Source of the DNA: Deltaproteobacteria bacterium CG11_big_fil_rev_8_21_14_0_20_49_13
GTDB taxonomy: Bacteria; UBA10199; GCA-002796325; 1-14-0-20-49-13
Direction: 5' to 3'
Length of the DNA stretch: 34,059 bases
Assembly: GCA_002796305.1 (NCBI GenBank)
Contig: PCWZ01000072.1
Location: forward strand, 16,918-50,976
Shown: in pieces, positions 6,736 through 33,351 of the stretch
How the letters are laid out: every line of letters begins with the position of its first letter
Numbering within the stretch: the first letter of the stretch is position 1
The notes under the pieces: model-generated
Told to the model about the DNA's origin: nothing
Seen by the model: the letters and a program-made list of their open reading frames with translations, nothing else
Databases searched by the model: none
Translations under genes and position numbers: made by a program

Positions 6736-7380
6736 TCAAGCTTTCAGCTCTTCAATAGCCTTTTTATAATCCTTTTTACCGAAGATGGCGGAGCCGGCGA
6801 CTATTATCTGTCCCCCGGCGCTTGTCACTTCCTTTACGTTCGAGACCTTTATTCCGCCGTCAACCTCAATGAGCTTGTTCCATTTTTTATCTTCGTAGAT
6901 ATGTTTGTGAAGACGCCTTATCTTTTCAAGGCATGAATGGATGAGCGACTGGCCGCCAAATCCGGGGTTCACGGTCATTACAAGGACGAAGTCGGCATAT
7001 TCCACGAAGGGTAAGAACTTTTCAACGTCGCTCGGCGGGTTTATGACCGCCCCGGCCTTGCATTTCAGTTTTCTTATGGCGGTGAGTATCTTTTCTAGGT
7101 CGCACGCCTCAAAATGAACGGAGAGCATATCGGCCCCGGCCTCTGCGAACTTTTCGATATATTTTTCGGGATGCTCTATCATTAAATGGACATCAAGTGG
7201 AATGGCGGTGGCCTTTCGCACGGCCTTAACAACATCCGGGCCTATCGTGATGTTAGGGACGAAATGTCCATCCATGACATCCACGTGGATTATGTCGGCG
7301 CCGGCCTCTTCGACCGCTTTTACCTCTTCAGCAAGACGACCGAAATCGGCCGACAAAATAGATGGAGCTATTAATCTCAT
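6736..7380 (-). CDS. rpe: ribulose-phosphate 3-epimerase
   Basis: A 214-residue TIM barrel that interconverts ribulose 5-phosphate and xylulose 5-phosphate. Diagnostic features: IAPSILSADF at the N-terminus, metal ligands His32 and Asp34 in HVDVMDGHFVPN, His65 in DVHLMIE, Asp174 in EVDGGI, VMTVNPGFGGQ, and the phosphate loop near VAGSAIFG. The length matches the family. The start codon overlaps the fmt stop (ATGA), so it is coupled to fmt and closes the priA-def-fmt-rpe cluster. No repeat insertion is present in this gene. Confidence 0.97.
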   Translation of the reverse strand: MRLIAPSILSADFGRLAEEVKAVEEAGADIIHVDVMDGHFVPNITIGPDVVKAVRKATAIPLDVHLMIEHPEKYIEKFAEAGADMLSVHFEACDLEKILTAIRKLKCKAGAVINPPSDVEKFLPFVEYADFVLVMTVNPGFGGQSLIHSCLEKIRRLHKHIYEDKKWNKLIEVDGGIKVSNVKEVTSAGGQIIVAGSAIFGKKDYKKAIEELKA

Positions 7381-8342
7381 ATAAACCTATCTCCGACCTT
7401 CAGCCCGGAGCCCTTTAGGTATTCGACCGCCGGCATTCGTTTTTTACCGGGGGCCTGAACTTCCAGGATGCAGAGCTGGCCAAAACCGGTCGCCACGAAT
7501 ATTCCCTTATCAAGACCTATGATCGTTCCTGGTCTTTCCTTCGTTTCTATCTCAATCGGGGCCGCATCGTATATGATCAATTTATTCTTGTCATTTCTTG
7601 CTTCCTGCTTCTTGCTTCCTGCTTCTTCTGTGTATGTATATGCGCCGGGCCAGGGAGTTAAACCCCTTATTCTGTTATATATCCCGGAGGCGGAGCGGCC
7701 CCAGTCAATAAGCCCTTCCTCTTTGGAAAGCTTATGAAAGACTGTCGCCTCCTTGTGGTCCTGGACAAGCCCCGCAAGGGTGCCGGCTTCAATCCGGTCA
7801 AGGGTCTTTAGAAGAAGTTCCGCTCCCATCGCCGCCAGATGTTCATGGAGAGTCTCAGATGTGTCGTGAGAGGTGATCTCGGTGGCACATTGGAGGAGTA
7901 TATCTCCCTCGTCCATCTTTTTGTTCATGTACATTGTGGTGACGCCGGTCTTTTGTTCGCCGTTCATTATCGCCCAATTGATGGGGGCCGCCCCTCTGTA
8001 TTTAGGGAGAAGCGACGCGTGGACGTTAATGCATCCCTTGAGCGGAAGATCCAGTATCTCCTTAGGGATGATCTTGCCGTATGCCACAACTATTATTGCA
8101 TCCGGGGCCAACGTCTTTATTTTAAAAAGAAGTTCGTTATTGTCCTTGAGCGTTAGGGGCTTTTCGGTTGGAATGTCGTGTTCTTTTGCAAATTCGGCAA
8201 CTGGTGAGGGAGTTAATTTTCGGCCTCTTCCCGCCGGTTTGTCGGGCTGTGTCACAACGAGCGACACTTCGTGTTTTGAAGAGATGAGTGCGCCGAGGGA
8301 CGAGACCGCAAAATCGGGGGAACCCATAAACACTAGTTTCAT
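7377..8342 (-). CDS. fmt: methionyl-tRNA formyltransferase
   Basis: A 321-residue enzyme that formylates initiator Met-tRNA with 10-formyl-tetrahydrofolate. The formyltransferase domain shows VFMGSPDFAV, the catalytic Asn106/His108 in CINVHASLLPKYRG and Asp147 in the EGDILL region. The C-terminal OB-like domain starts near 210. At residues ~239-253 (EAGSKKQEARNDKN), between PWPGAYTY and LIIYDA, the protein has about 14 residues with no counterpart in E. coli Fmt. They are encoded by a heptamer array and keep the frame. The partner enzyme, peptide deformylase, lies just upstream in the same direction. A REP-like element occupies the gap between def and fmt. Confidence 0.96.
   Translation of the reverse strand: MKLVFMGSPDFAVSSLGALISSKHEVSLVVTQPDKPAGRGRKLTPSPVAEFAKEHDIPTEKPLTLKDNNELLFKIKTLAPDAIIVVAYGKIIPKEILDLPLKGCINVHASLLPKYRGAAPINWAIMNGEQKTGVTTMYMNKKMDEGDILLQCATEITSHDTSETLHEHLAAMGAELLLKTLDRIEAGTLAGLVQDHKEATVFHKLSKEEGLIDWGRSASGIYNRIRGLTPWPGAYTYTEEAGSKKQEARNDKNKLIIYDAAPIEIETKERPGTIIGLDKGIFVATGFGQLCILEVQAPGKKRMPAVEYLKGSGLKVGDRFI
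7586..7627. repeat. in-frame heptamer array inside fmt
   Basis: Four clean 7-bp units, GCTTCCT, GCTTCTT, GCTTCCT, GCTTCTT (7600-7627), are preceded by two degenerate ones. The array encodes the extra peptide in Fmt. A related array with the same heptamer lies in metH at 32046-32073. Confidence 0.8.
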
Positions 8343-8945: not shown

Positions 8946-11009
8946 TCATAGCATATTGATCGGGTCTACATCAATAGATACCTTAACGCCACGGGGCGTC
9001 TTTTTCAGGTGGCCTAGGACGTTTGTAAGCCCGACTCTTAATCCCTTGATATCGCTACCTTTTAACATCAATTGCCAGCGGTAATTGTTCCTTATTTTAT
9101 GGATAAGGGCGGGTGTTGGGCCGAGAATGGTCACCCCTGTCATTGCGGGTCCAGCCTCTTGGCTGGGCGAAGCAATCTCATGCGCACATTTTGATTCGGG
9201 AGATTGCTTCGGGCTTTGCCCTCGCAATGACACAGCCAGACATTGCGCAAAGCCCATCACCTTTGCATCGTTTAGGCCCTGAACCTTGACCATTGCCAAC
9301 CGCCCGAAGGGCGGGTAGCTGAGCTCACGACGCATCGGTATCTCGTTCTCATAAAAATTGAAGAAGTCGTGTCCCATGGAGGCAGCTATTGAATAATGTT
9401 CGGGCGAATATGTCTGAATTATCACCTTTCCCTTCTTATCGCTCCTCCCCGACCGGCCTGCCACCTGTGTGAGCAGCTGAAACGTCCTTTCGCCGGACCT
9501 GAAGTCGGGGAAGTTTATCGAATGGTCCGCATCTAGGACGCCGACAAGCGTGACATTGGGGAAGTCGTGGCCCTTGGTGACCATCTGTGTGCCGACAAGT
9601 ATGTCTATTTTACCAGATCTCATCTGAGACAATATTTTGGAGCGCATGCCGGCCTTAACAGCCACGTCCCGGTCGAAACGCTCGATCCTTGCATCCGGAA
9701 AGAGGGCCCTTAGTTCCGATTCTATTCGTTCGGTCCCCGTTCCCAGATCTTTGAGCCTTGGGCTACCGCACTTAAGGCACTTGTTCGCCCTTTTTATCTT
9801 GTATTCACAGTAGTGGCACAGAAGCGAATCGTTCTCCTTATGATAAGAGAGGGTGATGTTGCAGTTGGGGCAGGTGAAGGCCTCGCCGCATTCCTCGCAA
9901 AGCACGAAACTTGCAAAGCCTCGCCTGTTGAGAAAGAGTATCGTCTGCTCTTTCTTGTTGAGGACCTCGGAGATGGCTCCCATGAGCTTTGGCGATATGT
10001 TGGCGCCTTTGGCGGAGAGGCGCATATCGATTATCTCAACCTCGGGAAGCGGCGCACCCGTGGGTCTTTCCTGAAGATGTATATAATGATACTTTTTAAG
10101 TTTGGCGTTCGTAAAGGTCTCGATCGAAGGTGTGGCGGAGCCCAAGATGCAGTGGACGTTCTCTATTTTTGCGCGCATCACGGCCGTATCGCGCCCGTTG
10201 TAGCGCGGGTTTTCGTCCTGTTTATATGACGGGTCGTGTTCTTCATCCACGATGATTAAACCCAAGTTCTTAAGCGGGGCAAAGACCGCCGAGCGAGTCC
10301 CTATAACTATCTTTGCCTTGCCATCCTTTATCCTCTTCCATTCGTAGAACCTTTTGGCCTCGGTGAGGCCGCTGTGATATGTAGCAACGCAGTCGCCAAA
10401 TCGCGCGACTATTCGCCCCACCGTTTGCGGAGTCATTCCTATCTCGGGTACGAGAAGTATGGCCGAGCGGCATTCTTTAATGACCTCTTCAAAGAGCCTC
10501 AAGTATACCTCGGTCTTGCCGCTTCCCGTAACGCCATGAAGCAGGGTCGTTTCGAATTTTTGCTCTTTTAGCCTCTCTTTGAGATCGTCCACGGCCCCTT
10601 TTTGTTCCGCCGAAAGGGTGACCTCTTCCTCGTTCATGAAGATGTCGTCTATGATGGTCTCCTTGGGGGTGACCTCCCGTTTTTTCTTGGTCCTTACGGC
10701 CAGCGAATTGGGAAGCGCGGTCTTTACCATCTCGCCTATTGGTACAAAGTAGTAATCAGAGAGCCATCTTATAAGCTCCACCATCTTTTCGGAAAGGGAC
10801 GGTTCGGTATCAAGGACCTCTAAGATATCTTTTATCCGAAATTCTCTTTGACTTTGACTTACGCACTCTTCCATCACATACCCCACGACCGTTCTTCGCC
10901 CGAGGGGGACCATGACCCTGTTCCCGACACGTACATCGAGCCCGTCGGGAACGGAGTAGGTAAATGCGCCCCTTAATGGAAGCGCTATTGCAACCTGTAC
11001 GGATCTCAT
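8946..11009 (-). CDS. priA: primosomal replication restart helicase PriA
   Basis: A 687-residue superfamily 2 helicase that reloads the replisome at stalled forks. The N-terminal 3'-DNA-binding domain is followed by Walker A GVTGSGKTE (159-167) and the DEEH box (255-258). A zinc-binding block (CEECGEAFTCPNC...CHYC...CLKC) lies within the helicase core, and the C-terminal helicase motifs include GTQMVTKGHDFPNV and QVAGRSGR. The tail ILGPTPALIHKIRNNYRWQ is conserved. Between LAVSLRG and TGVTILG, residues ~593-623 (rich in Ser, Pro and Gln) are foreign to the family and come from a 93-bp palindromic element. Helicase motifs are intact, so the protein is expected to work. Confidence 0.96.
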   Translation of the reverse strand: MRSVQVAIALPLRGAFTYSVPDGLDVRVGNRVMVPLGRRTVVGYVMEECVSQSQREFRIKDILEVLDTEPSLSEKMVELIRWLSDYYFVPIGEMVKTALPNSLAVRTKKKREVTPKETIIDDIFMNEEEVTLSAEQKGAVDDLKERLKEQKFETTLLHGVTGSGKTEVYLRLFEEVIKECRSAILLVPEIGMTPQTVGRIVARFGDCVATYHSGLTEAKRFYEWKRIKDGKAKIVIGTRSAVFAPLKNLGLIIVDEEHDPSYKQDENPRYNGRDTAVMRAKIENVHCILGSATPSIETFTNAKLKKYHYIHLQERPTGAPLPEVEIIDMRLSAKGANISPKLMGAISEVLNKKEQTILFLNRRGFASFVLCEECGEAFTCPNCNITLSYHKENDSLLCHYCEYKIKRANKCLKCGSPRLKDLGTGTERIESELRALFPDARIERFDRDVAVKAGMRSKILSQMRSGKIDILVGTQMVTKGHDFPNVTLVGVLDADHSINFPDFRSGERTFQLLTQVAGRSGRSDKKGKVIIQTYSPEHYSIAASMGHDFFNFYENEIPMRRELSYPPFGRLAMVKVQGLNDAKVMGFAQCLAVSLRGQSPKQSPESKCAHEIASPSQEAGPAMTGVTILGPTPALIHKIRNNYRWQLMLKGSDIKGLRVGLTNVLGHLKKTPRGVKVSIDVDPINML
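9139..9231. repeat. 93-bp palindromic element inserted in frame in priA
   Basis: Outer arms GTCATTGCG (9139-9147) and CGCAATGAC (9223-9231) are perfect inverted repeats. Inner arms CGAAGCAATCTC (9168-9179) and GAGATTGCTTCG (9200-9211) are also perfect. The length is exactly 31 codons, so the reading frame is preserved. Confidence 0.88.
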
Positions 11010-20395: not shown

Positions 20396-23300
20396 TCAAG
20401 ATGTCGGAGGTCGGATGTCAGAAGTCGGATCTTTGATTTCATATTTTTGATATCTGACGTCAGACTTCTGACCTCTGCCTTTATTCAAGCTGTTTTTCAA
20501 CAGCCCTTTGCTGTCCAAATATGCTTCTATCCTTGTAACGGTCCCGGCATCGTTCGCATGCTCATCGAACTGGAGCGTCAGGTATGGTTTTTCGCCGGCC
20601 CATGTTGTAAAATGTTTGATGAACGAATCCGGTCCGCACTTAAAGTTAGTTATATATATCATGTGGAGATGTTTACGTTCCGCCACATATTTTGCCGCCG
20701 CTATTATTTTTTTGCCGTAGCCCCAGAACATGTTCTTGGTGATGCCGTCTATGTTCATTTCATCCAGAGGTAGAAAATCGAACGGGATCACGTTCATTCC
20801 GTAATAGTCCCTTAGTTTCTTGGGTGTGCTAAGGTTAGTTCCCGCATCATAGATGTTGTACGGACGGCCTATTATGACCAATGCAACGGCTCCGGCAGCC
20901 TCGATCATTTTTAAGGCGATGGCACCTGCCTCTTTGATCCTTCTTGCGTATTCACGCTGGGCGGAATAGGCGGCCTTTGCGGCATCGTCACTCTCTTTTC
21001 TAGATACGTTGAGATCCTTTGCCACCTTCCACATGCATTTAGATACGAACTCTTCGCCAAGTTCGAACTGAACGGTCGGGATGATGAACTTCACGTTGTT
21101 AAATTCCTTATGACCCTTCATTATAAAGGGAAGGGTCTGATGCCAGGGGCAGAGATAGGGGATTGGTGATCGGTCATCGGCGGTCGGTAATCGGTCAGAG
21201 CTTATAACGTTAGGCATGAATATGTGGTCGACGCCTTTTTTGAGAAGGTCTTTAATGTGTCCGTGAACGAGTTTTATCGGATAACAAGGCTCGGCGATAG
21301 AAAGTTCTGTACTGTCATGCGAGATGGTCTTGTTTGTTTCATCGCTGACGACCATCTTAAATCCGAGCGTCTCAAAATATGTGCGCCAGAACGGGAAGCG
21401 GTCGTAGAAGAACATGGCGCGGGGAATGCCTATTCGCGCGCTCGTACCATCGTGCTCTCTCGCGCTCGCAAAACCTAAAAGGATTTCTTCCCTTTTCTTG
21501 AACAGGTCGTCGACAACCGGAACGTTATCCGTGTGCGCCTTTTTGCGGAACTTTGAGGAACATTTATCTCCCCAATATGTCTTCTCTCCCTCGACGTTGA
21601 ACTCCTGAATGTCACACGTGTTGGTGCAGGCGTTGCAGGCGAACTCGCGCATCGTGTAGTTGACCTTGGCGATGTCGAAACCCCTAAACCTCGTAATTCG
21701 TGACTCGTAACTTGCAACTTGTTTTTTTAAGTCACTAGTTACAAATAACGAGTCACGGGCCAGCAGGGCCGCGCCTATCGCGCCTATCACGCCATTATGC
21801 GGAGGGACCGTTATCGTCTTTCCTAGTATCTGCGAAAAAGCGGCGGCGACGGAGTCATTATAAGCGGTGCCACCTTGAAAGAATATGTGGTCTCCGACCT
21901 TTCTTCCGCGAACAACCCTGTTCAGATAATTTGTGGCGACCGAATACGCGAGTCCCGCAACTATATCCCTAATCTTATTTCCCTTTAATTGGTGGGTGTT
22001 GACATCTCTCTCCATGAATACCGTGCAGCGTTCACCTAAGGAGATCGGCGCTTCGGATGAAAGGGCGAGATTTGCGAACTCTTTTTTGATGTTCAGTCCC
22101 AGCTTTATGGCCTGTTCTTCAAGGAAGGAACCGGTGCCGGCGGCGCAGGCCTCGTTCATGGCGAAATCCGTTACTACGCCGTTCTCTATCTTTATATATT
22201 TTGCATCCTGGCCGCCTATCTCAAAGATAGTATCGACCTTTTCGCCGGTGAATTTTTCACAGATATGAATGGCACCCGTTTTGTGGGCGGTGATCTCGTC
22301 TTTGGCAACATCGGCGCCGACGAGCTCTCCTATGAGCTCTCTGCCGGAACCGGTAGTTCCTACTCCAACGATATTTATCTTGGCGCCTATCTCGTCCCTT
22401 ATTCTGTGAAGACCCTCTCTTACAACTTCGATAGGTCGTGCCTTTGTATAGGTGTATATCTCCATCGCCATGTCGCCGTTCTTGTCTACAAGGACAAAAT
22501 TGGTGGAGACGCTACCGATATCGATACCCAGATAGACGTCAACCTTGCCGTGATCGGGGAAGTTGTATGGTCTTACACAGTCACGGAGGAAGCGGACGTT
22601 CTTGGTGGAAAGGGGGGGCGTTGTGACGTTGCCGTCATTCTGGGCATTAGCGAAGAATCCCCCGGCAGTAACCGTATTATCTGAATTCTTCGGTCGTTTC
22701 ACCCCCTCAGAACGGCATGTTAGCGAAAGCATCGCCGCGCCTAAAGCCCCGAAATATTCCGCACCCTCCGGAACGATGAGGTTTTTGTCATCCAGCGAAA
22801 ATGTCTCTTTGACGGCCGATACAACGCCTTCATTCAATGCAAGGCCTCCAATAAAGATAACATTGGGTTCAACGCGCCTTCCTTTTACGATGGTCGCCTT
22901 GAAATTTCTTACAACGGCCATGCAAAGACCCCGTAGAACTTCGGGGGGTGAATATCCTTTTTGCTGGGCGTGGATCATGTCTGATTTTGCAAAGACCGAG
23001 CATCTTCCCGCCACCCTTGCCGAGCGCTCTGCCTTAAGGACCAAAGGTCCTACCTCTTCTACTTTATAATGAAGGCGCTCGGCCTGCTGGTCGATAAAAG
23101 AGCCGGTCCCGGCGGCGCAGTCGCCGTTTATCCCGTATTCAACTATCTTACCGTCTTTTAATCTTATGAACTTGCTCGTTTCCCCGCCCATCTCAAAAAT
23201 GGTCCTGATATCGGGATAGAGCTTAATAATAACGGCAACGATCGCCTTAAATTCGTTAACACGTTGATATTTAAGGAGTTCTGCCCCAGTGCCGGTCACG

Positions 23301-25640: not shown

Positions 25641-25717
25641 CGCTCATGGTGAGCCTGTCGAACCAGGAACGTGATAATATAATATAAGGTCATCCTTCGA
25701 CAGGCTCAGGATGAGCG
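25641..25717. repeat. intergenic palindromic element between porA and porB
   Basis: The left arm runs GCTCATGGTGAGCCTGTCGA, the right arm TCGACAGGCTCAGGATGAGC. They are near-perfect inverted copies around an AT-rich centre. The element fills nearly all of the porA-porB gap. Confidence 0.8.
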
Positions 25718-25726
25718 AGAAAAGTT

Positions 25727-26662
25727 ATGGATCTATCAGCATACGCTTCTAGGTTGGTCGAAGCCCCCGAGAAATTCACGCAGGGGCACAGGGGTTGCGT
25801 CGGATGCGGCGAGGTTCTTGCATTGCGCCACGTATTCAAGGCCGTAGGCAGGGACATAGTGGTGGTCAACGCCACAGGTTGCATGGAGATCATCGCCTCC
25901 GCGTTCCCCACGACCGCATGGGAAGTTCCGTGGATACACACCCTCTTCGAAAATACCGCCGCGGTCGCTTCAGGTGTTGAGGCCGCCTACAAGGCGATGA
26001 AGAGAAAGGGTCTTTATCCGAAAGATCAGCCGGTAAAGGTCATTGCGATAGGCGGTGACGGCGGAACAGCAGATATCGGACTACAGGCGCTTTCGGGCGC
26101 GCTCGAACGCGGACACGATTTCATGTATGTCTGCCTCGATAACGAGGCCTACATGAACACGGGCGTTCAGAGGTCAGGGGCCACTCCTTACGGTGCAACG
26201 ACCACGACATCGCCCGCCGGCAAGACCATAGGTCAGGTGACATGGAAGAAAAATATGCCGGCGATAGCGGCGGCTCACGGCATCCCTTACGTTGCTACGG
26301 CTTCCCCCGCTTACATATTCGATCTTATGGAGAAGGTGAAAAAGGCGATGGCGGTAAAGGGTCCTTCCTACCTTCATATCTATTCTCCGTGTCCGACGGG
26401 ATGGAGATGCGCGACCGACCTTTCGATAAGATACGCAAGGCTCGTTGTCGAGAGCGGAATATTCCCCCTCTACGAGGTCGTTAACGGAAAATATAAGCTC
26501 TCGATGGATATCGAGAACCTTCTTCCGGTTACAACGTACATGAAAGGGCAGGGGCGTTTCAGGCATTTAATCGAGAAGGACATTAATTATATACAGGAAC
26601 GCGTGATCAAAGAGTGGGAGGAGTTAAAACAGAAGTGTAAACAGCCTTTATCCTTCGAGTGA
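25727..26662 (+). CDS. porB: pyruvate:ferredoxin oxidoreductase, beta subunit
   Basis: A 311-residue beta subunit that holds thiamine diphosphate and one [4Fe-4S] cluster. The thiamine motif is GDGGTADIGLQALSGALERG with LDNEAYMNTG. Candidate cluster cysteines are Cys24 and Cys27 (GCVGCGE), Cys52 and Cys222. Family length is normal. The last codons and the stop lie within the start of a repeat element (26654-26721), so the repeat supplies the stop codon. It is the last por gene, followed 67 bases later by nuoE. Confidence 0.95.
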   Translation: MDLSAYASRLVEAPEKFTQGHRGCVGCGEVLALRHVFKAVGRDIVVVNATGCMEIIASAFPTTAWEVPWIHTLFENTAAVASGVEAAYKAMKRKGLYPKDQPVKVIAIGGDGGTADIGLQALSGALERGHDFMYVCLDNEAYMNTGVQRSGATPYGATTTTSPAGKTIGQVTWKKNMPAIAAAHGIPYVATASPAYIFDLMEKVKKAMAVKGPSYLHIYSPCPTGWRCATDLSIRYARLVVESGIFPLYEVVNGKYKLSMDIENLLPVTTYMKGQGRFRHLIEKDINYIQERVIKEWEELKQKCKQPLSFE

Positions 26663-26721
26663 GCGAAGCGAATCGAGAAGCCTGCCCTGAACATGTTGAA
26701 TAGCTCTCGACTTCGCTCGAA
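26654..26721. repeat. palindromic element at the porB 3' end, copy of the metH insert
   Basis: It starts TTCGAGTGAGCGAAGCG and ends TCTCGACTTCGCTCGAA, the arms being rough inverted copies. The end 17-mer is identical to that of the element at 31726-31794 within metH. The porB stop TGA lies in its left arm. Confidence 0.85.
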
Positions 26722-26729
26722 TAATACAT

Positions 26730-29775: not shown

Positions 29776-30032
29776 TTTGTTTTGAGTAGCGCTCTTATTT
29801 TCAGCAGGTCTTTATTGTAAATTCCGCCACGAAAATCAGGGAAACACCACGGGAACGGCTGGAACGATCCTTTCTGATAGTCTATTATCATATAGGCATA
29901 GCATTCGTCGGTCAGCGCTATCTTGTGGCCTCCAAATTTTCCGGAAGCAAGGACCAATTTACAGTGATCGATATATCCGGCGTCTATATTGACCTTCGGC
30001 TTTAATCCCCGCCTTGCCATTATGGCTTTCAC
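29776..30032 (-). pseudogene. 5'-truncated DUF4416 family remnant
   Basis: Translated on the minus strand, about 84 residues match the C-terminal half of DUF4416 proteins: KPKVNIDAGYIDHCKLVLAS, FGGHKIALTDECYAYM and FQPFPWCFPDFRGG. The family normally has ~180 residues. Here an in-frame TAA (30038-30036) lies just before the homology, so the N-terminal half is missing. The frame also runs on past the homology into DNA antisense to the HoxU-like gene, ending at 29592, so the natural stop seems lost too. A GTG at 30032 could start a short product, but a decaying fragment is more likely. It fills the gap between the HoxU-like gene and metH. Confidence 0.75.
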
Positions 30033-30042
30033 ATGTTATATC
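30014..30042 (+). promoter_or_regulatory. metH promoter, probably giving a leaderless transcript
   Basis: TTGCCA (30014-30019), a 17-base spacer and TATATC (30037-30042) fit a sigma70-type promoter. The start expected 7-8 bases downstream falls on the metH ATG at 30050, and no ribosome site exists there. Confidence 0.55.
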
Positions 30043-30049
30043 CCGTGCA

Positions 30050-32713
30050 ATGGATTTCTCTCATCTTTTGATATCCGGAAAGATCATCGTTTTTGATGGG
30101 GCGATGGGCACGGCCTTAGCTTCGCCAAGGAATGACAAATGTCCAAATGCCAATGAACGAACAAACTGCAATGAAGAGCTGAATCTAACCCATCCCGAAA
30201 TTGTAAAAAGTGTTCACCTTGATTTTCTGAACGCGGGGGCACGGGTCATTGAAACAAACACCTTTGGCGCTAACCGCCTGGTGCTCGCCGAATACGGCCT
30301 AGAAGACAAGGTGAGCGAGATAAATCTGGCGGCGGCCAATATCGCCAGAGCAGCAATTAACGAGTCACTAATCACGAATAACGAGTCACGTTTTGTCTCC
30401 GGTTCCGTCGGTCCTACAAGTAAACTTCCGACCCTTGGCCATATTTCGTTCGATGAGATGGTAGTGATCTATAAAGAGCAGATATCGGCCCTTATTGAAG
30501 GCGGAGTTGACCTTCTGCAGATCGAAACCTGTCAGGATATCCTGCAGGCGAAAGCGGCGATCATCGCATGCAAAGAAGTAATAAGTCGATCTGTCATTAA
30601 TGCCCATGATGACGTGCGAAATAAAATCCCGATTATCGTCACGCTTACCATCGAATCATCCGGCACCACGCTCCTGGGCACCGAAGTCGGAGCGGCCCTT
30701 GCCGCGCTCGAACCGCTTGGCATTTCAGCCTTTGGGCTTAATTGCGGCGGGGGACCCAAGCAGATGGAAGAGCACGTTAGATATTTATCTCAAAATTCGA
30801 GCGTTCCCATAGCCGTTCTTGCCAACGCCGGTCTTCCGGAAATAGTTAACGGTGTCGCCAGATACGATCTTTCGGCGGAGGAGTTCGGTAAATGGGCAGA
30901 GTACTACACTCGAGAACTGGGCGTTCAAATAGTAGGCGGGTGCTGCGGGACGACGTCGGAACATATTCGTTCGGTAGCGGATAAAATCACCCCCTCCCTT
31001 TGTAAGGGAGGGAAGGGGGAGGGAGACAACAGTTCAATTGTTCTACCAGCTCTAACTCCTCTCCCTCGACAAGGCTCGGGGCATGCTTACAAATGGGGAG
31101 AATATTTCTCATCACTTTACTCTCCAGTAGCCGTCGATCAGGAGCCAAGGCCGCTTATCGTTGGCGAGCGGATGAATATTAACGGTTCAAAAGAGTTCAG
31201 AGAACATATTTTAAAGGACGATTTTACCGCCGCCTCTCTCTTTGCCAAGCGTCAGGCGGGGACCGGAGCGCACGTTCTGGACCTTTCCGTTGCCTATGCC
31301 GGAAGGGACGAGGCACAAGATATTTCTGCAATGGCTTTGTCGCTCGCGGCATCATCCACTCTTCCTATAATGATCGATTCAACGAACCCCGAGGCGATAG
31401 AGGCGGCGCTTAAGAGGCTTCCCGGAAGGTCCGTGATCAATTCGATAAATCTGGAAGATGGAGGCAAAAAAGCGGTCATAATGATCAAGCTTGCCAAGAA
31501 ATTCGGCGCAGGTCTTGTTGCGCTCACGATCGACGAAAAAGGAATGGCGCGAGACGCCGACACCAAGCTAAAGATCGCCAATAGGCTGATAAAGCTCTGC
31601 GAGGATCTAAATGCGCCGCTCTTTATAGACCTTCTTACGTTTACGCTTGCCGACCCTGAGGCGGCAAAGTTCGGGAGCGGTCATGAAACTCTTAAGGCGA
31701 TAAAAAAACTCAAAACGATTTATTCTTCGGGCAAGCGAAGCGCGTCGAGAAGTCCGGTTCTGGGCCGGTCGAAGGGTTCTCGACTTCGCTCGAACGATAA
31801 TGTTCGTAGCATCTTAGGTGTCAGCAACATTTCGTACGGCCTAAAGCCCGAGATGAGAAAGGTCTTAAACAGCGTCTTTCTTTTTGAGGCGGTAAAGGCC
31901 GGTCTTGATGCGGCCATCGTCCATGCAGGGCAGATACTCCCCATTCATAAAATAGATAAAAAGGCGCTGAACCTTGCGCAGGAACTTATCTTTTGTAAAA
32001 GGAAGGATGCTCTGCAGAAGTTCATAGGGCATTTTGAGGGGAAGAAAGAAGCGGGAAGCAGGAAACAAGAGAAGAGAATGTCTGATGAGGAGAGGTTGAA
32101 ATATTCCGTTATCGACGGCGACAGGTTGGAGCTTGAGAAAATAATACCTACGATCATCAAGATATATCCGCCGACAGAGATAATAAGCAAGATCCTCCTT
32201 CCGGCAATGCGGACGGTCGGCGAAAAGTTCGGGAGAGGAGAGCTTGCCCTACCTTTCGTTCTCCAGTCGGCGGAGGTGATGAGGAGATCCGTTTCCTTGC
32301 TTGAGCCGTTTATGGACAGGACAAAGATGAAAGAGCAGGGGAAGATGGTCATTGCAACGGTAAGGGGCGACGTTCACGATATAGGCAAGAATCTTGTGGA
32401 TATAATACTTACGAACAACGGCTTTAAAGTTGTGAACTTGGGTGTCAAACAGCCTATCGAGTCGATCATCATGGCCATAGAGACAGAGAAACCTCAGGCG
32501 GTTGGGCTTTCGGGGCTCCTTGTCCAGTCATGCCTCATAATGAAGGATGACCTTATCGAGCTCTCGCACCGGGGCATAACCATTCCTGTAATATGTGGCG
32601 GCGCGGCGCTAACCGGTAAATTCGTAGAGAACGAACTACAAAAGGCCTATAAGGGAAAAGTTTATTACGCAAAGGATGCTTTCGAAGGACTTAAAATAAT
32701 GCAGTCACTATGA
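30050..32713 (+). CDS. metH: cobalamin-dependent methionine synthase MetH without the reactivation domain
   Basis: An 887-residue enzyme that transfers the methyl group of methyltetrahydrofolate through cobalamin to homocysteine. The homocysteine domain (~1-310) has zinc ligands Cys232 and Cys298/299 (GGCCGTT). The pterin domain starts IVGERMNINGSKEF (370-383). The cobalamin cap begins near 680, and the Rossmann part carries DVHDIGK (His776). The reactivation domain is a separate gene downstream, overlapping by 4 bases. Five repeat-derived segments are inserted: ~22-37, ~104-115, ~313-348, ~559-582 and ~664-677, mostly in loops or linkers. The ATG at 30050 gives the normal N-terminus before FDGAMGT. 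Confidence 0.93.
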   Translation: MDFSHLLISGKIIVFDGAMGTALASPRNDKCPNANERTNCNEELNLTHPEIVKSVHLDFLNAGARVIETNTFGANRLVLAEYGLEDKVSEINLAAANIARAAINESLITNNESRFVSGSVGPTSKLPTLGHISFDEMVVIYKEQISALIEGGVDLLQIETCQDILQAKAAIIACKEVISRSVINAHDDVRNKIPIIVTLTIESSGTTLLGTEVGAALAALEPLGISAFGLNCGGGPKQMEEHVRYLSQNSSVPIAVLANAGLPEIVNGVARYDLSAEEFGKWAEYYTRELGVQIVGGCCGTTSEHIRSVADKITPSLCKGGKGEGDNSSIVLPALTPLPRQGSGHAYKWGEYFSSLYSPVAVDQEPRPLIVGERMNINGSKEFREHILKDDFTAASLFAKRQAGTGAHVLDLSVAYAGRDEAQDISAMALSLAASSTLPIMIDSTNPEAIEAALKRLPGRSVINSINLEDGGKKAVIMIKLAKKFGAGLVALTIDEKGMARDADTKLKIANRLIKLCEDLNAPLFIDLLTFTLADPEAAKFGSGHETLKAIKKLKTIYSSGKRSASRSPVLGRSKGSRLRSNDNVRSILGVSNISYGLKPEMRKVLNSVFLFEAVKAGLDAAIVHAGQILPIHKIDKKALNLAQELIFCKRKDALQKFIGHFEGKKEAGSRKQEKRMSDEERLKYSVIDGDRLELEKIIPTIIKIYPPTEIISKILLPAMRTVGEKFGRGELALPFVLQSAEVMRRSVSLLEPFMDRTKMKEQGKMVIATVRGDVHDIGKNLVDIILTNNGFKVVNLGVKQPIESIIMAIETEKPQAVGLSGLLVQSCLIMKDDLIELSHRGITIPVICGGAALTGKFVENELQKAYKGKVYYAKDAFEGLKIMQSL
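30131..30158. repeat. in-frame heptamer array in metH, site 1
   Basis: Units AATGACA, AATGTCC, AAATGCC and AATGAAC are consecutive. They encode part of ASPRNDKCPNANE, right after the conserved FDGAMGT motif, where Thermotoga-type MetH has a segment shorter by about nine residues. Confidence 0.7.
30356..30390. repeat. in-frame heptamer array in metH, site 2
   Basis: Units ATTAACG, AGTCACT, AATCACG, AATAACG and AGTCACG are consecutive and encode INESLITNNESR before the conserved GSVGPT. The last two units match the activase array at 21744-21757 exactly. Confidence 0.85.
30986..31093. repeat. G/C-tract palindromic insert in metH, site 3
   Basis: CCCTCCCTT (30992-31000), a 3-base loop and AAGGGAGGG (31004-31012) form a perfect hairpin, followed by further G-rich and C-rich tracts. 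The region encodes a Gly/Ser/Pro/Lys-rich linker between the homocysteine and pterin domains. Confidence 0.7.
31726..31794. repeat. 69-bp palindromic element in frame in metH, site 4
   Basis: It starts TTCGGGCAAGCGAAGCG and ends TCTCGACTTCGCTCGAA; the length is exactly 23 codons. It encodes an Arg/Ser-rich peptide (SGKRSASRSPVLGRSKG and onward) inside the pterin domain, before ILGVSNISYGL. It is a clear copy of the element at 26654-26721. Confidence 0.9.
32046..32073. repeat. in-frame heptamer array in metH, site 5
   Basis: Units AAGAAGC, GGGAAGC, AGGAAAC and AAGAGAA encode EAGSRKQEKR just before the cobalamin cap. It is the same heptamer family and reading frame as the array in fmt (EAGSKKQEAR). 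Confidence 0.8.
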
Positions 32714-33351
32714 ATCCTCCATTTTACGGTGTCAAAACAGTCAAAAGTATTCCGTTAGACGAGATCTTTCGGTTAATAGATACCCATGCCCTTTTTGTCG
32801 GGAGATGGCAGTTTAAAAGGACGAAGGGGACAGAAGAGGCCTATCAAAAGATAATAAAAGAGAAGGTGTGGCCAAAGTTCGAGGAGCTGAAGAAGAGTGT
32901 GAAGGATGATGGGATATTTGAGCCCAAGGTCAGTTACGGATATTTCAAGAGGTCCCAGATCCTCAACTTAGAACTTCGAACCTCGAACTCCGAACCTGTC
33001 CCTCTGCAACTCGTAACTATAGGGAGCAGAGTAGCAGAAAAATGCGCCGAACTTTTCAAGGCGGGCAAATATACCGACTATCTCTATCTTCACGGACTTG
33101 CTGTGGAGGTGACCGAGGCGCTGGCTGAATATTCGCACAGGAATATCTTAAGAGAGCTGAACATCCCGTTCGATGCCGAAAGACCGCTTCCCGCAATGGC
33201 AAGGATCAGTCCCGGCTATCATGTATGGCCATCCCTTGCCGACCAGAAAGAGATGGTTCGGTTATTGAATGCTGGGGAGATAGGCGTAGAACTTTCCGAG
33301 ACCCTCCAGATGGTCCCGGAGTATTCCACCAGCGCGATGATTGTTCTTTAG
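32710..33351 (+). CDS. stand-alone MetH reactivation (AdoMet-binding) domain protein
   Basis: A 213-residue protein matching the C-terminal activation domain of MetH, which binds S-adenosylmethionine to remethylate cobalamin after oxidation. The AdoMet motif ARISPGYHVWPSLADQ (164-179) and the family end PEYSTSAMIVL are present, as is YLYLHGLAVEVTEALAEY. The region after VSYGYF (~80-98), normally longer and carrying CNSEGN-type residues, is replaced by a short stretch from a heptamer array (ILNLELRTSNSEP). The start overlaps the metH stop (ATGA), ensuring equal translation. Whether the shortened loop still supports AdoMet binding is uncertain. Confidence 0.9.
   Translation: MNPPFYGVKTVKSIPLDEIFRLIDTHALFVGRWQFKRTKGTEEAYQKIIKEKVWPKFEELKKSVKDDGIFEPKVSYGYFKRSQILNLELRTSNSEPVPLQLVTIGSRVAEKCAELFKAGKYTDYLYLHGLAVEVTEALAEYSHRNILRELNIPFDAERPLPAMARISPGYHVWPSLADQKEMVRLLNAGEIGVELSETLQMVPEYSTSAMIVL
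32971..32998. repeat. in-frame heptamer array in the MetH reactivation gene
   Basis: Four consecutive units, GAACTTC, GAACCTC, GAACTCC and GAACCTG, encode the Leu/Arg/Ser-rich segment that replaces part of the activation domain. Confidence 0.8.

Follow-up and report, generated by a model that had tools for sequence, protein, structure and literature searches.

A dispersed palindromic repeat of an uncultured deltaproteobacterial lineage is very probably tolerated in frame as a loop of MetH

The metH gene of Deltaproteobacteria bacterium CG11_big_fil_rev_8_21_14_0_20_49_13 carries a palindromic element inside the coding region of its pterin-binding domain. We are confident that this element is a lineage-specific dispersed palindromic repeat, located mainly between genes, which is tolerated in frame as a disordered, Arg/Ser-rich loop. 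A repeat-family origin of the metH insert follows from its nucleotide match to about 18 copies together with the empty sites seen in relatives. The window (the whole stretch of DNA analysed, 34,059 nucleotides) holds two copies; the relevant features, in window positions, are:

30014 to 32713, forward strand: metH, an 899-codon open reading frame with S-methyl_trans, Pterin_bind, B12-binding_2 and B12-binding domains
31720 to 31800, forward strand: metH element including the outer arms TTATTC and CGATAA, 81 bp or 27 codons, as delimited by a 13-copy alignment in which the outer T-A pairs are conserved
31726 to 31794, forward strand: core of the metH element, 69 bp (TTCGGG...CTCGAA), the best covariance model match in the genome (74.5 bits)
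31726 to 31751, forward strand: left arm TTCGGGCAAGCGAAGCGCGTCGAGAA, holding an extra small hairpin (GC-GAA-GC)
31777 to 31794, forward strand: right arm TTCTCGACTTCGCTCGAA, the half retained in the sister genus G001
30363 to 30390, forward strand: another repeat in metH, AGTCACTAATCACGAATAACGAGTCACG, read as the peptide ESLITNNESR; a second copy (21730 to 21757) also lies within an open reading frame
26654 to 26721, forward strand: core of the second copy of the element, 68 bp (26648 to 26727 with the outer arms), overlapping the 3' end of porB
26660 to 26662, forward strand: TGA stop codon of porB, contributed by the element

The initial annotation had paired the two cores on the strength of common ends. 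This proved correct: the coordinates are exact, and both arms and the 17-mer TCTCGACTTCGCTCGAA are common to the two copies. Their alignment over 80 to 81 bp, including the outer 6 nt, reaches a score equalled by none of 2000 shuffles, and blastn reports 76% identity over 76 bp (E=8e-8). The bounds given earlier are valid for the core but not for the full repeat, which continues for 6 nt on each side (TTATTC / CGATAA) to about 81 bp. Similarly, the length of exactly 23 codons applies to the core and not to the inserted length, as MetH here exceeds canonical MetH by about 24 codons net, and MetH of G001, the sister genus with half an element, by about 17. That the metH copy is in frame and adds an Arg/Ser-rich peptide to a conserved barrel is borne out by the open reading frame at 30014-32713 and its intact pterin-binding domain. 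The copy after porB, described as intergenic, does lie between porB and the next gene but is not strictly intergenic: porB (25727-26662, with a TPP-enzyme domain) runs into the element, which begins with TTCGAG and then supplies its stop codon. A further inverted repeat (CGCTCATGGTGAGCCTGTCGAA / TTCGACAGGCTCAGGATGAGCG, of the AGCCTGTCGAAG family) is present at 25641-25717, between the porA-type and porB reading frames. The MetH activation domain is encoded by a separate small reading frame (32710-33351) directly downstream of metH; in G003, a genome of the same taxonomic order, the two are fused.

Searched in the window alone, a 16-mer core gives a borderline result (8 of 100 shuffles yielded at least two matches when up to 3 mismatches were allowed). 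Genome-wide (1.96 Mb), the 17-mer is found at 17 loci with up to 2 mismatches, against none for a reversed-pattern control. The genome was analysed by such searches and by reading 20 stretches of it. A covariance model, with the best 150 candidates per genome scored, recovers at least about 18 distinct full copies in this genome (G000), at least two matches in the sister genus G001 and at least one weak match in G002; among the best 150 candidates of each of three other genomes of the order there are none. Of 46 genomes of the phylum, only G000 (12), G001 (2) and G010 (1) contain the 17-mer at up to 1 mismatch. A search for plasmid carriage of the element gave only weak partial matches (E 0.01 or more).

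Alignment of 13 full copies defines the unit as an inverted pair of arms of 17-26 nt with a variable loop, enclosed by an outer TTATTN...NAATAA. The consensus reads TTATTN-TTCGAGCG, side hairpin, AGTCGAGAA, loop, TTCTCGACTNCGCTCGAA-NAATAA, with a total length of about 57-81 bp. Across the 13 copies the left arm runs TTCGAGC...GTCGAGAA, often with a small side hairpin (GC-GAA-GC; CCGCCAAGCGG in copy L011), and the right arm is TTCTCGACTNCGCTCGAA. Pairing of the arms holds in 93% of cells, compared to 38-51% for slid arms. Right halves stand alone at L002, L009 and L016; two of these (L002 and L016) have common flanks (CAGCATCTCCCTAC / TAGTATCTCCCTAC) and perhaps represent a second, related repeat family.

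Most copies sit between genes or at gene ends. Only 4 of the 18 full copies fall in open reading frames while approximately 89% of the sampled DNA is coding, a strong depletion (P about 8e-11). All four are in frame in recognisable genes, namely metH and the following:

L010: CutM-like FAD subunit (a flavoprotein), with Pfam domains FAD_binding_5 and CO_deh_flav_C
L125: TatD-radical SAM protein
L126: Ser/Thr kinase, with the copy directly before the DFG motif

The host genes retain their Pfam domains, and orthologues without the insert exist for the CutM-like gene (G001 and G002), the TatD gene (G001 and G003-G005) and the kinase (G002). The cleanest site is that of the CutM-like gene, which reads CACFVRAGDKFAIAYG in G001 against CACFR-HYSSSESASSRRVETQCVGSRLRPNNN-AGDFIIAYG in our genome; the net gain of 26 codons equals 78 nt, or 6+66+6 (element plus outer arms). 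The idea that in-gene copies are multiples of three in length was not borne out: their cores measure 69, 66, 55 and 68 nt, which rules out such a length by design, and the frame is kept only in net. Intergenic cores vary in length. All four in-gene copies are stop-free and lie with the orientation of the model along the gene, and in each the right end is translated as TCT CGA (Ser-Arg). With n=4, the common orientation and right-end reading are only suggestive.

For metH the insert is absent in G003 and in more than 50 homologues of other phyla. Occurrence of the same insert in distant relatives had been named as the outcome that would make it an ordinary protein loop; MetH homologues of many phyla show neither the insert nor any repeat character at this site. 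They have the canonical ETxxxIxxIKxxxPxVxTxLGxSN, as does, according to the alignment, the solved MetH 8g3h. An AlphaFold2 model of the pterin domain (20 sequences) has a mean pLDDT of 88.5 with the barrel mostly above 90. The insert (model residues 201-218) has a pLDDT below 50 and follows a helix (181-196) and precedes a strand (223-228), so it is predicted to form a disordered helix-to-strand loop on an intact pterin-binding (folate) barrel. In TIM barrels the helix-to-strand loops are on the face opposite the active site, which fits the tolerance of MetH for the insert.

Sister genera differ at this loop. Just GGTTCTCGACTTCGCTCGAACAGTAATGT, corresponding to the right half of the element, is present in G001 (record CAIPVD01, uncultured delta proteobacterium), and in G002 (record JACPAJ01, Deltaproteobacteria bacterium) the loop holds tandem repeats of the ACGTAC type. 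Although MetH of G000 and G001 have 65% of their residues in common, codons match at only 0.33 of the shared degenerate residues. In the half element, however, 7 of 7 codons are identical, and these are part of the longest exact run of the gene (24 nt; the next is 16). Simple neutral inheritance of the half element does not fit these figures. The codon comparison suggests instead re-insertion or homogenisation among copies, or a constraint on the DNA.

It could still be argued that the metH insert is ancestral to G000 and G001 and came down vertically, G001 having lost an inner part of it. The position in the same loop in both genera and the common reading frame of the right end speak for this, but neutral descent should have scrambled the identical codons unless the DNA is selected or homogenised, and we regard the scenario as rather doubtful. 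Still less probable, in our view, is that the copies persist because they serve a function, for instance as a hairpin at transcript 3' ends, a terminator or an mRNA stabiliser as proposed for REPs, with the in-gene copies as by-products. The location of most copies between genes or at gene ends, the stop codon given to porB and the depletion in reading frames would agree with such a role. That depletion, however, is equally expected from purifying selection. Moreover, compensatory change in the arms does not exceed the level of shuffles, because of which hairpin maintenance is not separable from sequence conservation, and an Rfam search of the window returned no match.

Two further explanations appear highly improbable. 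An ordinary lineage-specific protein loop, resembling an intergenic repeat in its DNA by chance, would be in keeping with the variable length of MetH loops and with the place of the insert in one of them, but not with arms and outer flanks that match about 18 genomic copies at the DNA level, intergenic ones included, nor with relatives that lack the insert. Likewise, the strong hairpin predicted for the metH copy (about -31 kcal/mol) might be taken to mean that the ribosome skips this stretch of RNA, or that it is cut out of the mRNA, and that the protein never contains the peptide; yet all 4 in-gene copies are free of stops and keep the downstream frame, which neither skipping nor removal would need. 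We favour a dispersed repeat that is occasionally tolerated in coding DNA. When an element lands in a coding sequence, survivors would be those that keep the frame, bring no stop and hit a tolerant loop; translation of a surviving repeat would then give a disordered loop rich in Arg and Ser. The peptide in MetH is presumably neutral and retained in the mature protein.

The metH palindrome is one among several unrelated repeat families with in-frame copies in this genome. We counted 32 clusters of CATTGCGAG in a 407-kb sample of it, 9 of them in open reading frames of at least 150 aa (some of which may be spurious). The squalene-hopene cyclase (L155:10450-12783, contig C44) has four in-frame peptides of the CATTGCGAG type, such as VIARSESDEAIPRCKLSELDRHASLAMT, as well as the repeat-like peptides PALSGVEGS and HPEPVEG; the solved enzyme lacks these inserts. 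Within the window, the C-terminal domain of PriA (8949-11009, reverse strand) contains AVSLRGQSPKQSPESKCAHEIASPSQEAGPAMT, an insert derived from a repeat and not present in solved PriA. Methionyl-tRNA formyltransferase (Fmt, 7380-8342, reverse strand) has the insert EEAGSKKQEARNDK, derived from a GCAGGAAG-type repeat at 7586-7628 and absent from solved homologues. The GCAGGAAG-type repeat is also seen in the ClpB gene (L147) and in metH itself (about 32039-32074).

Three other sites in MetH of G002 hold palindromes of the CATTGCGAG type (VIASKAKQSSEQTRLPRRSTQRIECSARND; SLRGRSQKQF...ARND; VIARNEVTKQS...SARND). Two of the sites are loops occupied by other material in G000, in one case the repeat ESLITNNES and in the other the linker TPSLCKGGKGEG. 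Counting the full element in G000, the half with unscrambled codons in G001, the tandem repeat in G002 and the CGTC-type palindromes at three further G002 sites, we tentatively consider that certain protein loops may serve as repeated landing sites. MetH loops might then have been struck independently by different repeats, with some target preference at the DNA level, and recurrent in-frame insertion might be a steady source of new loops in the enzymes of this uncultured phylum.

How the element moves can be addressed only indirectly, its mobility being read from its dispersal. We found neither a transposition event nor a target-site duplication, and no transposase dedicated to it. A MITE would have terminal inverted repeats together with a target-site duplication. 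The element does have inverted ends, and all 13 aligned copies have a TA at either end. This TA hints at a target-site duplication, which the CutM-like site does not support, as it fits a 78-nt insertion without duplication. The genome has eight Y1_Tnp matches. The flanks of the Y1 (RAYT-like) genes L029 and L031-L035 are GGGGTCAGGCTTG or GGGGTCAAGTCTTG inverted repeats or variants of these; none of the Y1 genes with readable flanks is flanked by the metH-type palindrome, and a partial copy lies approximately 1 kb from one truncated Y1 gene. As the full-length Y1 genes that were read have a different inverted repeat on their flanks, they were rejected as a linked source of the element. Copies probably spread by transposition, and one might speculate that a RAYT-type Y1 enzyme acts in trans.

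Coding palindromes were first explained by way of Rickettsiales; here an unrelated uncultured lineage behaves alike, with several repeat families and with core enzymes of known structure (MetH, PriA, Fmt and squalene-hopene cyclase) as hosts. Since the inserts at a given loop differ among sister genera, the lineage can be used to test neutrality, the re-use of loops as landing sites and what moves the repeats. A practical caution is that protein length differences in MAGs may stem from repeat DNA.

The resemblance to Rickettsia palindromic elements (RPE) proposed in the initial annotation holds for the way the element works, not for membership. Like RPE-1 to RPE-7 and the Wolbachia palindromes it is dispersed, mostly intergenic and sometimes in frame in conserved genes that remain intact. 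In Rickettsia and Wolbachia, too, the group of coding palindrome found at a given locus, or close to it, may differ between orthologues of sister species (PMC3767692). Unlike RPE, which measure 100-150 bp (PMC3767692), our element is about 57-81 bp long, belongs to another lineage and has only about 4 of 18 copies in genes; it is likened by behaviour and not by consensus sequence. RPE hosts are Rickettsiales, whereas the nearest relatives here are MAGs labelled Deltaproteobacteria, and the 17-mer is confined to three genomes of the phylum. With the GTAG/CGTC REPs (PMC3733652) the element has in common inverted pairs, a position downstream of genes, the supply of stop codons and occasional in-frame copies in conserved genes. 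It differs in that its arms measure 17-26 nt and bear an additional side hairpin, and in having no linked transposase; by eye, none of the 13 aligned copies showed an unpaired GTAG or CGTC tag at its ends, the consensus of which reads TTATTN / NAATAA. The CATTGCGAG inserts of the lineage do resemble CGTC-type REPs. Similarly, the inverted repeats flanking the genome's own Y1_Tnp genes fit the published TIRYT motif GGGGWSAS (PMC3733652), but they are unrelated to the metH-type element. In REPtrons or RAYT-mobilised REPs the repeat flanks a Y1 gene; at the Y1_Tnp loci searched the element does not. Intragenic REPs encoding 20-30 aa have already been published for R. conorii and, outside Rickettsia, for O. 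terrae and Thauera (Di Nocera et al. 2013, PMC3733652); what is new here is thus the family and its lineage, not the category.
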